This document shows, in pieces, positions 16,746 to 20,894 of a stretch of DNA of 35,412 nt. Made by a program: the position numbers and the translations under genes. Below the pieces are notes generated by a model. The model had not been told where the DNA came from and searched no databases. It saw only the letters and a list, made by a program, of their open reading frames with translations. Within the stretch, counting starts at the first letter, position 1. Every line of letters starts with the position of its first letter. This stretch comes from Sulfurovum sp. Lineage in GTDB: Bacteria; Campylobacterota; Campylobacteria; Campylobacterales; Sulfurovaceae. The stretch is from positions 1 to 35,412 of the forward strand of contig JAQVHV010000009.1 of NCBI GenBank assembly GCA_028696055.1, written 5' to 3'.

Positions 16746-17927
16746 TCACATTCCAGGGAGTCTTGGGATTTTGCCTAGTTTGGACATTTTGCAGTACCAG
16801 CCCCATCCCTTTTTCATCCAGTGTCCCACAAACGGCATCGGAATGATCTTTCCGCCCTTATTATTTCTATAGACAAAGGCTGCACCGTTACCGGTATCCA
16901 TGACACACAGGATATTAAGGTGCTCGATATAGCTCTCTTTGGAGTCGATATTCTGAGAATCCTGGAAGATGTTATAGGCGGTATTTCTTGCCATTACCTC
17001 TGCCACATGCCCCTGTTTCGCTCTCCAGTCAGGCCCCATCAAGTTTGCAGAGTCTCCGATCGCATAGACGCCGTTAAACCCTTCCACTTCATTGTATTCA
17101 TTGGTCAAGACAAAACCTGCTTCGCTCAAAGGAAGGTCCGAAGCCTCCAGGATAGGGTGCCCCTTGCCCGCGGAGATAAACATCGTCAGATCAGACTCCA
17201 GTCTGCTCCCGTCTTCGAAGCTGATCCCGTCCGCTTCAAAAGCAACGATTTTGGTACCTATTTTCTTTTTAATATTGAACATATTGAACATCTTGTCCAT
17301 CATATCCAACGCTTTGTCCCCCATCTTCTGCCCCGGTTTCTCCATCGGTGCAAAGAAGGTGAGCTCGAAGTTGTCACGGATACCCTTACGTTTCAGGTAG
17401 GTATCTACGTTGAAGAGCACTTCAAACGCAGGACCGCCACGCACCGCAGAGCTGTCTTTCGGGTTTCCTCCGAAGCCCATAGCGATCTTTCCTTTTCCCT
17501 GGGCGACAAGCTTATCCAATTTTCCGTAGAGCGCAGTAGCCTCTTCGGGAGCGCCGCAGATAGAGAGTGAGTGCTCACCCATACCCGGCATCTGGATCTT
17601 GCCCTGGCCGATCGCAACCACAAGATAGTCATACCCCTCCATCACACGTCCGCTCTCCAGTGTGACTCTTTTTTCTGCTGCTTCGATTTTGCTTACGGGA
17701 TCAATGATCAGTTGAAACCCGTGCGCCACTGCCAGCTTGTCAAGGGGGACCGAAACATCCTCTCTCGTTGCCTCCCCGGTAGGGATCCAGATCGATGTCG
17801 GATAGATATAGAAGTAGTCCCTGTCGCTCACCAGGGTGACATCCATCTCGTTTTTTCTCAGGAAGATCGCCGCTTCTACACCGGCAAATCCCCCGCCCAA
17901 TACCAATACGCTTTTTTTGCTAGACAT
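16746..17927 (-). CDS. Sulfide:quinone oxidoreductase-like FAD protein
   Basis: A 393-aa pyridine-nucleotide-disulfide-type flavoprotein. N-terminal dinucleotide fold LVLGGGFAGVEAA (8-20), ATR/IG-type segment DYLVVAIGQG (100-109) and second FAD motif GVYAIGDSAN (286-295). Cys124 (SICGAPEEA) and Cys341 (ILCVMDTG) occupy places matching the two redox cysteines of SQR and FCSD flavoproteins; Cys379 is additional. The C-terminal PMPFVGHWMKKGWGWYCKMSKLGKIPRLPG is amphipathic and could sit on the membrane. It would pass sulfide electrons to menaquinone. The SQR subtype cannot be fixed by eye, and a related NADH dehydrogenase-like role is possible. Start ATG 17927 with an AAGGAA-type site. Confidence 0.8.
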   Translation of the reverse strand: MSSKKSVLVLGGGFAGVEAAIFLRKNEMDVTLVSDRDYFYIYPTSIWIPTGEATREDVSVPLDKLAVAHGFQLIIDPVSKIEAAEKRVTLESGRVMEGYDYLVVAIGQGKIQMPGMGEHSLSICGAPEEATALYGKLDKLVAQGKGKIAMGFGGNPKDSSAVRGGPAFEVLFNVDTYLKRKGIRDNFELTFFAPMEKPGQKMGDKALDMMDKMFNMFNIKKKIGTKIVAFEADGISFEDGSRLESDLTMFISAGKGHPILEASDLPLSEAGFVLTNEYNEVEGFNGVYAIGDSANLMGPDWRAKQGHVAEVMARNTAYNIFQDSQNIDSKESYIEHLNILCVMDTGNGAAFVYRNNKGGKIIPMPFVGHWMKKGWGWYCKMSKLGKIPRLPGM

Positions 17928-18145: not shown

Positions 18146-19582
18146 TTACTTTTGCAGTGCTCCGAGTCTGGGATAGGTAAAGATCAGGTCTCTCTCGATC
18201 ACGATTTTCTCTTTCTCATCGATCGCATAGGCTTTGATCTTCACAGGGATAGAGACATCCTTGTCTTGACTCTGCGCCAATGGTTCTTTTGCCTCAAGGA
18301 TAACAACCTCTTTCGCTTTAAATCCCGGTCCTATCTTGATAGGATTTTTCGGGCGTACGATTTCGATCTTGTCGTTATTAATGATCTCAAAAGTATAGGT
18401 GTGCGGTTTGCTATCTGTATTCTGGAACAGGAAAAGATAGTCATTTTGCACCACTCCGTTAGGCAGCGTTTTATAGAGTCTTGTACTTTTATTGATATTG
18501 AGAAGCATATGCTCTTTTGTACTCCCCATCATAAAGAGTGCCACAAGTACGATCGCCAGGACAACAAAGTAAGCGATCACCTTTCCTCTGAAGTAGTTGG
18601 TCTTGCCTTCATACTTCACAGCCTCTTTTTCACTGGACCAGCGCACAAGAGACGGCTTATTAAATGCAGCCATCACCTCAGTACACGCATCCACACACTC
18701 CAGACAGTTGATACACTCAAGCTGAAGCCCTTTACGGATATCGATGTGCGTAGGACATACCGTTACACAACTCTCACAGGTCGTACACTCTGCACCCGGC
18801 TCGACGGAAAGAAGGTCTTTTTGTTTTGTATACATCTTCTTTCTGTCATAACCGTGTCCCTGATAGATCTCGCCACCACGTTTCGGGTCATACACAGCCA
18901 TAATGGTATCGTCATCATAGAGTACCGACTGCACACGGCTGTAGGGACAGATATAGACACAGAAATCCTCTTTAAGGAAGACCACATCCACGATCAAAAA
19001 GGCTGCCAGGCCAAGCAAAAATCCAAGCAGTACCGTGTGTTCCATCGGATCTTTCAGGTATGCGAAGAACTCTTCAGGAGGGACAAAATACCACATGAAG
19101 TTCGCAGCCGCCACCAATGCAAGGAGTGACCACATGAGAATCGCCACCACTTTCTTCACTTTGTTCTCGGCTTTGCTCATATCGGGCTCTTTCTGCTTAT
19201 TGCTGATACGCTTGCGGAGTCCGAGGATCTTCGTCTCGATCAGGTCTCTGTAGATCACCCTGAAAATGGTCTGCGGACAGGCCCATCCACACCATGCTCT
19301 ACCGCCCACTACCGTCACGGCGAAAATACCGAGGAAGAGAAGCATCAACAGGAACGGCATCAAATATAGCTCCTGCATATCAAACACCACTCCCGCAAGG
19401 TGCAGTTTCTTATGATCGAAACTGAGCAGGAAAAGGTGGTTACCGTTGATGGTTATCCAGGGGATACTGATCCCTACGATCGTCGCGGCCAGATAAGCCC
19501 AATACCTCTTCACACTGTAAGGGATCCACCCCTTTAAGTACTCTTTTTTACTCACTTTCTTTTGTTGTGCTGTTGCTTCCAT
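18146..19582 (-). CDS. ccoG: Cytochrome c oxidase accessory protein CcoG
   Basis: Polytopic membrane ferredoxin-like protein (RdxA/FixG) that reduces Cu(II) for cbb3-type oxidase assembly. 478 aa. Helices near residues 28-47, 75-93, 145-163, 183-203 and 335-352; GRAWCGWACPQT (95-105, Cys98/102); CVYICPYS (Cys208/212); and two 4Fe-4S motifs, CTTCESCVTVCP (266-277) and CINCLECVDAC (290-300), then an Ig-like periplasmic tail. The start is ATG 19582, with GAGG 9 bases upstream; the ATG at 19597 lies inside the previous gene. It begins one base after the stop of the recombinase-like gene, so the two are translationally coupled. No ccoNOP genes are in view. Confidence 0.93.
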   Translation of the reverse strand: MEATAQQKKVSKKEYLKGWIPYSVKRYWAYLAATIVGISIPWITINGNHLFLLSFDHKKLHLAGVVFDMQELYLMPFLLMLLFLGIFAVTVVGGRAWCGWACPQTIFRVIYRDLIETKILGLRKRISNKQKEPDMSKAENKVKKVVAILMWSLLALVAAANFMWYFVPPEEFFAYLKDPMEHTVLLGFLLGLAAFLIVDVVFLKEDFCVYICPYSRVQSVLYDDDTIMAVYDPKRGGEIYQGHGYDRKKMYTKQKDLLSVEPGAECTTCESCVTVCPTHIDIRKGLQLECINCLECVDACTEVMAAFNKPSLVRWSSEKEAVKYEGKTNYFRGKVIAYFVVLAIVLVALFMMGSTKEHMLLNINKSTRLYKTLPNGVVQNDYLFLFQNTDSKPHTYTFEIINNDKIEIVRPKNPIKIGPGFKAKEVVILEAKEPLAQSQDKDVSIPVKIKAYAIDEKEKIVIERDLIFTYPRLGALQK

Positions 19583-19583
19583 G

Positions 19584-20252
19584 TTACAGTACCTCATCTT
19601 TTAGTTTATTTTTTTCGAAAGGACAGATCAGTACCCTGTCCTCGCTCTCTTTTTGCTTGTCTGAAAAATCTGTCTCCAGCCAAGCCCCGGCGATCAACTC
19701 TCTAAGCTTTCTTGACTCGATATAATCTTTAAGAGAACTACGACTCACCTCAAGCTCCCGTGCAATAGCACTGACACTCATGCCCTCTTTCAGGCCTTCC
19801 ATGATCCGAGCTTTAAATTTATCGAACTTTGAAGAGGATCTGCTTCCTTTGGGACGCCCGATCTGGGTGTTTTTGGATGCTTCTGCCTCCCTCAAGTCAT
19901 TGATCAGAGGAAAGAGATCGATGATTTTAGTGTTTTTGTTGATGACCCTCTTGGGAGACACAACATAAAGCGTCGCCTCCTTGCTAAGCGAACAGTTGAT
20001 CAGTTTGATCAACTCCTCGGCACGCTGACTGAGCACAGAAAGCGTCGAAACAACGATGCTGTCCCCTTCGCGTAGAAAGCGCAAAAACTCCTCAAACTCT
20101 TTTCTCTCCTCTATTTTAAGCGGTCTGTTTGAATACTCCACTACCTCTTTGTCGATTTGAATATCATTCGCCAATGAAAAAGAGAGGATATCACGCTGCT
20201 GTTCAGCAAGGCTGCTTAAGCCATGAAGCTGTCTGATGTAGCCATATACCAT
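19584..20252 (-). CDS. Catalytically degenerate serine-recombinase homologue, likely regulator
   Basis: A 222-aa protein with resolvase/invertase layout: N-terminal resolvase fold (about 1-105), a GRPKGS linker (138-143 region) and a Hin-type helix-turn-helix (about 155-182, [26 protein letters not shown]). The active site is gone: the YxRVST serine motif is YGYIRQLHG, and the LDRLGRD motif is LSVLSQR, removing the catalytic Ser, the Asp-Arg pair and the second Arg. It should bind DNA but not recombine it. AAAGGA 6 bases upstream supports ATG 20252. It is fused into one transcription unit with ccoG (1-base gap), suggesting control of respiratory genes or itself. Function is inferred. Confidence 0.82.
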
Positions 20253-20423
20253 TCTATTTCCTTTCTCATTTTTATTATCTTACTCTATTTGATGAAGAAA
20301 GTCAATAGTTTTAAAACAAAAATCGTCAATGAAATCTTTTTTACGTCAAGCAAGTCTTTTGTTGACTGTAATATTATGTTAAAATATCTCGATAATCATT
20401 TGGAAACATTTCAAAGGAACAGC
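20253..20423. promoter_or_regulatory. Divergent promoter region with GTCAA motif cluster
   Basis: An AT-rich interval separating the recombinase-like/ccoG unit (-) from moaC (+). GTCAA occurs at 20301-20305, 20325-20329 and 20345-20349 and its inverse TTGAC at 20362-20366, spaced about two helical turns apart. The last also reads TTGACT, a possible -35 for moaC. These repeated half-sites are candidate binding sites for the recombinase-like protein. Confidence 0.45.
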
Positions 20424-20894
20424 GTGAACCTTACACATTTAGATGAAGAAAACAAGCCCAAAATGGTGGATGTCTCGGACAAAGAGGACACCACACGTAT
20501 CGCCGTGGCCTCAGGCATGATCGAAGTCACACCCGAAGCGTATGATGCCGTCATTGCCAATACGGCCAAAAAAGGACCGGTCCTGCAGACTGCGGTCATC
20601 GCTGCAATACAGGGGGCCAAACAGACCAGCACCCTGATCCCTATGTGTCATCCTCTGATGCTGACGTCGGTGAAAACGGATATCGAAGAGCTCCCCGAAC
20701 TTCCGGGGTTCAAACTGACAGTAACAGCAAAGCTCAAAGGGCAGACCGGGGTAGAGATGGAAGCCCTTACGGGTGTCAGCATCGGTCTGCTGACGATCTA
20801 TGATATGCTCAAAGCGATCGACAAGGGCATGGTGATCAGAAATATACAACTTGAAGAAAAATCAGGAGGGAAAAGCGGTGATTTTAGACGGTAA
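20424..20894 (+). CDS. moaC: Cyclic pyranopterin monophosphate synthase MoaC
   Basis: Second part of step one in molybdenum-cofactor synthesis, making cPMP from the MoaA product. 156 aa. Signatures are [13 protein letters not shown] (15-27), the LIPMCHPL block (71-78), [22 protein letters not shown] (109-130, with the catalytic Lys region) and the KSGGKSGDF tail. The start is GTG 20424 with AAAGGA 5 bases upstream; the ATG-led longer frame from 20223 encodes an unrelated hydrophobic extension across the promoter. Its end overlaps the DUF493 gene by 17 bases. It supplies cofactor to SoxC and other molybdoenzymes. No other moa/mog genes are in view. Confidence 0.95.

Follow-up and report, generated by a model that had tools for sequence, protein, structure and literature searches.

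A serine recombinase homologue without its active site precedes ccoG in much of the order Campylobacterales: a candidate autoregulating repressor

The Tn3 resolvase (TnpR) represses tnpR and tnpA from res, where its sites overlap the promoters, as a side activity (PMC7157771), and the Sin dimer is inactive at regulatory site II, whose half-sites lie head-to-tail (PMC2428073). TnpR is catalytically active on its crossover site and Sin is an active recombinase whose site II serves recombination, whereas the protein described here, X, has no active site. Transcription factors derived from mobile elements, such as Ner/SfsB and antitoxins, follow the same principle of a DNA-binding protein co-opted for host regulation; passages of a review on these (PMC8987985) treat serine recombinases only as recombinases, and a dead one acting as a transcription factor was not found in it. 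Full activity of the cbb3 oxidase requires CcoG, a cupric reductase (PMC8267372). In the open-access literature we found nothing on the control of ccoG in Campylobacterota, nor any precedent for regulation by a dead serine recombinase or for the combination of X with ccoG; as evidence of novelty this is weak.

The window, the whole stretch of 35,412 nucleotides analysed, corresponds to contig C53 of a Sulfurovum-like MAG that is 87% complete; among named records, a Sulfurovum sp. MAG comes closest, with 91% identity. An open reading frame of 222 aa was found on the minus strand exactly where the original prediction had placed it (19584-20252), and the features that it was said to retain (resolvase fold, GRPKGS linker and helix-turn-helix, HTH) are borne out by profile matches, alignments and a predicted structure (Table 1). 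The N-terminal resolvase domain is recognized by Pfam Resolvase (PF00239; 37.6 bits, cut-off 23.3), and a C-terminal HTH was assigned although HTH_7, at 22.8 bits, is marginally below its cut-off of 23.8. The top NCBIfam match is the Mpi master DNA invertase (NF009949), of which X is not a member (68.5 bits against a cut-off of 272), and the closest sequence match in the PDB is the Sin resolvase 2r0q (E 5.4e-6). A structure model built with 36 rows (X and 35 relatives) reached a pLDDT of 80.7, compared with 36.5 for a single-sequence model. Full-length structural alignments of the model to 1gdt, 1zr2 and 2r0q were obtained; its predicted fold matches the catalytic domains of gamma-delta and Sin with Z 14.4-14.5, the value for 2gm5 (Tn3/gamma-delta resolvase) being Z 14.5 with rmsd 2.4 across 116 residues. 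X resembles Tn3/gamma-delta resolvase in fold, HTH and minor-groove linker, and the region of the HTH and GRPKGS is its best-conserved portion.

Table 1. Features of the X-ccoG locus and their positions in the window
Feature	Position	Strand	Description	Basis
X	19584..20252	minus	Serine-recombinase-like protein without catalytic residues, 222 aa	ORF, Pfam, alignment, predicted structure
Parts of X (residues)			Resolvase domain 1-125; truncated helix E ~110-130; GRPKG linker 132-136; HTH ~142-180; C-terminal tail with C210	
ccoG	18146..19582 (alternative start 19597)	minus	Cupric reductase / cbb3 oxidase assembly factor	TIGR02745, Fer4_18, FixG_C
moaC	20424..20894	plus	GTG start; divergent, sharing the intergenic region with X	
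FAD/NAD(P) oxidoreductase	16746..17927	minus	Pyr_redox_2 family (sulfide:quinone-reductase-like), downstream of ccoG	
Candidate X operator	20290..20328	minus	39 bp, TGACGATTTTTGTTTTAAAACTATTGACTTTCTTCATCA, inverted TGACG/CRTCA half-sites	
Extra direct half-site	20338..20348	minus	TGACGTAAAAA, 20 bp upstream of the left half-site of the operator	
-35 box	20300..20305	minus	TTGACT, within the candidate operator	
-10 box	20277..20282	minus	TAAGAT, 7 bp past the right half-site, 17-bp spacer	

The columns of S10, R68 and R71 of gamma-delta resolvase are occupied by L9, V73 and Q76 in the X of the window. In an alignment of 79 X orthologues with 11 distant intact homologues, the catalytic serine is present in none of the orthologues and in each of the 11 intact homologues from this order; arginine is found at 73 in 0/79 and at 76 in 1/79 orthologues, while both arginines occur in 11/11 intact homologues, which without exception carry YxRVS and the ELSRLGR-type arginines. 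A stray serine stands one position later in 13 of the 79 orthologues and one position earlier in seven, neither being conserved. The predicted absence of the catalytic serine therefore holds throughout the clade, and the possibility that the catalytic set is displaced yet present is ruled out both by the intact relatives and by the structural match. The original prediction had also counted an Asp-Arg pair and a second Arg as lost; this is correct for the arginines, whereas the loss of the aspartate is not diagnostic since intact relatives carry serine at that position (ELSRLGR). The old active site retains two other arginines, R8 and R45, as R7 in 72/79 and as R50, which aligns with the NRP arginine of Sin, in 79/79. 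The stretch that holds helix E, up to the GRPKG linker, measures 58-61 residues in X against 73-77 in intact relatives, about 15 fewer; the deletion is also visible in alignment with viral invertases, and the model places the helix at 110-130.

Orthologues were sought in 175 genomes of the family (Sulfurovaceae) and 399 genomes of the order (Campylobacterales), most of the genomes compared being MAGs. The search scores split in two: the orthologues cover E ~1e-105 to 1e-38, and most of the distant homologues fall between 1e-20 and 1e-12. The orthologues, from about ten families of the order, form one clade with branch support 100/100 relative to 43 intact recombinases. The X and ccoG trees run parallel (Mantel r 0.73, 0/1000 permutations), and comparison with three close relatives gives a dN/dS of 0.11-0.14, which indicates purifying selection. 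No second homologue was found in the window genome at E<=1 and no orthologue in viral contigs, and plasmids yielded only recombinases of ~30% identity. The nearest intact homologues within the order are Mpi-family invertases of the same genomes, with 25-30% identity to X and 53-70 bits compared with 160-350 for X orthologues. These invertases lie outside the X clade and not beside ccoG, and unlike X they keep all catalytic residues (YxRVST / ELSRLGR) and the full helix E. The clade-wide absence of the residues, the single supported clade, the tree that tracks ccoG and the low dN/dS argue, at the level of sequence, that X is an old and functional protein without catalysis. An ordinary decayed mobile element is ruled out by the clade-wide conservation, the low dN/dS and the linkage to ccoG.

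The survey of ccoG neighbourhoods that accompanied the original prediction was carried out, and X was found immediately 5' of ccoG on the same strand at 53/53 loci of the family and 28/28 more distant loci, i.e. at 81/81. The other genes around X-ccoG vary between families, and none of the 11 intact homologues fetched adjoins ccoG. The product of ccoG belongs to the CcoG/RdxA/FixG family (TIGR02745; 489.6 bits, cut-off 316.7). The predicted one-base distance between the X stop (19584-19586) and the ccoG start is confirmed for the ATG at 19582, and the alternative ATG at 19597 would give an overlap of 14 bp. The divergent moaC was rejected as the true partner of X because it is a neighbour only in Sulfurovaceae and the sister family f4, whereas ccoG adjoins X everywhere. 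A long moaC ORF call begins at 20223 (plus), within X on the opposite strand; its real start is most likely the GTG. The Pyr_redox_2 oxidoreductase downstream of ccoG occurs also in f4 and f18, and, going by names read from the sequence except for Pfam-matched ones, X-ccoG is accompanied elsewhere by, among others, a divergent three-gene set (f20) or peroxidase-like and aldo/keto-reductase-like genes (f18). We did not find ccoN in the window genome (87% complete), yet it is present in all 15 relatives searched, so that its absence probably reflects an assembly gap.

An inverted pair, TGACG-N28-30-CRYCA, is present in 73 of 79 distinct X upstream regions, compared with ~0.1 expected when the same sequences are resampled at first order. 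Its width is 39 bp in 52 cases, 38 bp in 17 and 40 bp in four; among the six upstream regions without it, several show visible near variants or a misassigned start. Families with otherwise unlike intergenic DNA have a common layout, TGACG(A/T-rich)...TTGAC(TTTWT)CRTCA...TANNNT, in which the pair encloses the TTGAC -35 box and the -10 element follows 7-8 bp past the right half-site, which consequently sits in the -35/-10 spacer. The candidate operator thus overlaps X's own promoter, as far as the promoter can be read from sequence, an arrangement characteristic of an autoregulator. In the window the site matches the operator model with E 5.4e-6, the top match in the window genome, and it falls within 20253-20423, the stretch that the original prediction had singled out for DNA binding. 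Most of the Sulfurovaceae have further direct TGACG half-sites in 20-21 bp steps, while most families outside Sulfurovaceae have the inverted pair only. In f16 (L096-L101, L117, L118) a second TGACG lies 52 bp downstream of the first, with CGTTA/CGTCA near the X start codon, possibly forming a second operator across the ribosome-binding site. A standard crossover site is ~26-28 bp wide, so the 39-bp pair is wider by about one helical turn, and an inverted site of standard width was not seen at the X locus, where the pair measures 38-40 bp. Together with the shortened helix E, the 39-bp pair suggests a different bound geometry.

In order to see whether the site belongs to X, the operator sequence model was scanned over 19 whole genomes, 15 with X and four without. 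The X promoter is the top site in 14 of the 15 X-bearing genomes and ranks second behind another site in G351, whereas the best matches in the four genomes without X reach only E 0.019-0.040. No operator was found upstream of ccoG in nine fetched loci that lack X. Two cases of loss are informative. In G271 (L148) X is absent and the promoter, TTGACTTTTTAAATCTAAATTGTTATACTT, is retained with both half-sites altered; half-sites lost while the promoter stays are what is predicted for a binding site of X. In G293 (L149, f20) an X pseudogene split across two frames remains on the minus strand upstream of ccoG and next to it, with no TGACG before the pseudogene; this locus represents a natural loss of the X-operator system.

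In most genomes the site was found once, at the X promoter. Both G269 and G351 (f16) have a second strong site between two genes for small membrane proteins. A homologue of one of these two proteins is encoded right behind ccoG in the X operons found in Sulfurovaceae and f18. In G351 a third site and, after it, a TATAAT precede two rhodanese-domain-like genes (named from sequence). These sites are suggestive, although not proof, of a small X regulon beyond X-ccoG; they are few and come from one family (f16) only. One-helix membrane proteins of 63-73 aa with the pattern EPTL...DY... are encoded at L036 4782-4976, L104 5968-6189, L235 1709-1900 and L151 1871-2068, either after ccoG or behind an X-type site, and this family is perhaps an oxidase-assembly partner. 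Three other matches were rejected as X sites: position 12564 of C121 in the window genome, a site that lacks the pair with the spacing needed and resembles a plain palindrome; position 4374 of C144 in the same genome, which is weak and not convincing; and position 953464 of G177, which falls across a start codon and is probably a chance match.

We consider it likely that X is an exapted resolvase that acts, through the candidate operator, as an autoregulating repressor of the X-ccoG operon, a verdict drawn from comparative genomics. The idea of a dedicated transcription factor for ccoG, already put forward in the original prediction, gains support from the linkage at 81/81 loci, the operator-like site and the decay of that site upon loss of X. 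According to this model, X would be a small serine recombinase (resolvase/invertase type) whose catalytic activity disappeared in the ancestor of one Campylobacterales clade and which now serves as a dedicated local transcription factor. Its C-terminal HTH would bind the TGACG half-sites with the GRPKGS linker in the adjoining A/T-rich minor groove, a proposed layout like that of resolvase and Hin sites. An X oligomer on the 38-40 bp inverted pair would cover the -35 box and the -35/-10 spacer, reinforced in Sulfurovaceae by the direct half-sites 20-21 bp apart, and its occupancy would exclude RNA polymerase and thereby repress the operon. A signal, perhaps copper or redox state acting via C87 and C210, would relieve repression, so that CcoG could be made on demand, independently of the ccoNOQP operon. 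The several promoter-overlapping sites and the repression of its own and a neighbouring gene proposed for X would be analogous to what is known of TnpR (PMC7157771), from which X differs in its lack of the Ser, R68 and R71, the short helix E, the 38-40 bp inverted pair, two invariant cysteines, the C-terminal tail and the linkage to a host respiratory gene.

Alternatively, X might be an activator or dual regulator that recruits RNA polymerase from the upstream direct repeats, or switches with the signal. The extra half-sites of Sulfurovaceae do lie upstream of -35, the usual position for an activator, and a promoter-overlapping site is in principle compatible with activation. However, what does not vary in the site is the inverted pair, with its right half inside the -35/-10 spacer, and most families outside Sulfurovaceae have nothing more than this pair. 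The promoter moreover appears good unaided (-35, -10 and a 17-bp spacer), and its boxes persist in L148, where X has been lost. We regard activation as unlikely on these grounds, and prefer repression.

Several genomes of f4 and f18 have a second copy of ccoG, 97.7-100% identical to the first over ~1.41-1.44 kb in flanks that are unlike (locus pairs L103/L130, L104/L131, L132/L133, L105/L134, L090/L135 and L136/L137), which looks like the result of gene conversion keeping the copies alike. Where it was read (L131, L135, L138), the second copy follows ccoNOP-type genes, and X and its site occur only at the other copy. X-ccoG is hence a separately placed supply of CcoG and, by inference, a separately controlled one. 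In G334, three ccoG copies on C1 (at 1108913, 1219930 and 1330947; L138, L139 and L091) have identical scores, are exactly 111,017 bases apart and are accompanied by one X, as would arise from tandem duplication of a large segment or from an artefact of assembly.

The near-identical second copies might be taken as a sign that X retains an architectural or recombination role, e.g. as a regulatory subunit alongside an intact partner recombinase. Resolvase dimers at accessory sites, such as Sin site II (PMC2428073), are likewise catalytically idle yet essential, and head-to-tail half-sites are found both there and at X. Nevertheless, no second homologue turns up in the window genome at E<=1, the flanks of the second ccoG copies have no X sites, and what is conserved in the orientation of the half-sites and in the -35/-10 boxes is a promoter. 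Since most genomes have the site only once, there is also no partner site, and we consider such a role very improbable. Equally improbable is a function of X as a translational coupling leader or structural partner of CcoG with vestigial DNA binding: the X stop and ccoG start touch, overlap or sit a few bases apart in many loci, but the HTH and GRPKGS are the most conserved part of X and the operator decays together with it.

As for the signal to which the proposed repressor would respond, the X of the window has exactly two cysteines, C87 and C210, both invariant in 79/79 orthologues and absent from active relatives. Few residues of the old catalytic domain are invariant, one being C87; C210 lies in the tail that intact relatives lack. 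Because CcoG handles copper, sensing of copper or thiol-redox state by X is a natural hypothesis, and copper or redox sensing through these residues is plausible from their conservation; they may also be structural. A more speculative extension, possible but on balance doubtful, is that dead recombinases constitute a new class of cysteine-based copper/redox sensor-repressors, in which sensing of cytosolic copper or redox state by C87/C210 of the former recombinase would control ccoG and a small regulon (the small membrane protein and the rhodaneses) apart from the cbb3 operon.

It was already known that repression of their own promoters can be a side activity of resolvases; the candidate operator of X is new in this analysis. 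If our reading is true, the side activity became the sole job of the protein across a clade, with catalysis gone and the operator kept over about ten families, and X would clearly exemplify the exaptation of a site-specific recombinase into a transcription factor. CcoG would gain a candidate regulator and operator that are open to testing, for which the two invariant cysteines suggest a concrete copper/redox hypothesis. For the annotation of these genomes, it would mean that a "recombinase family protein" need not imply DNA rearrangement.
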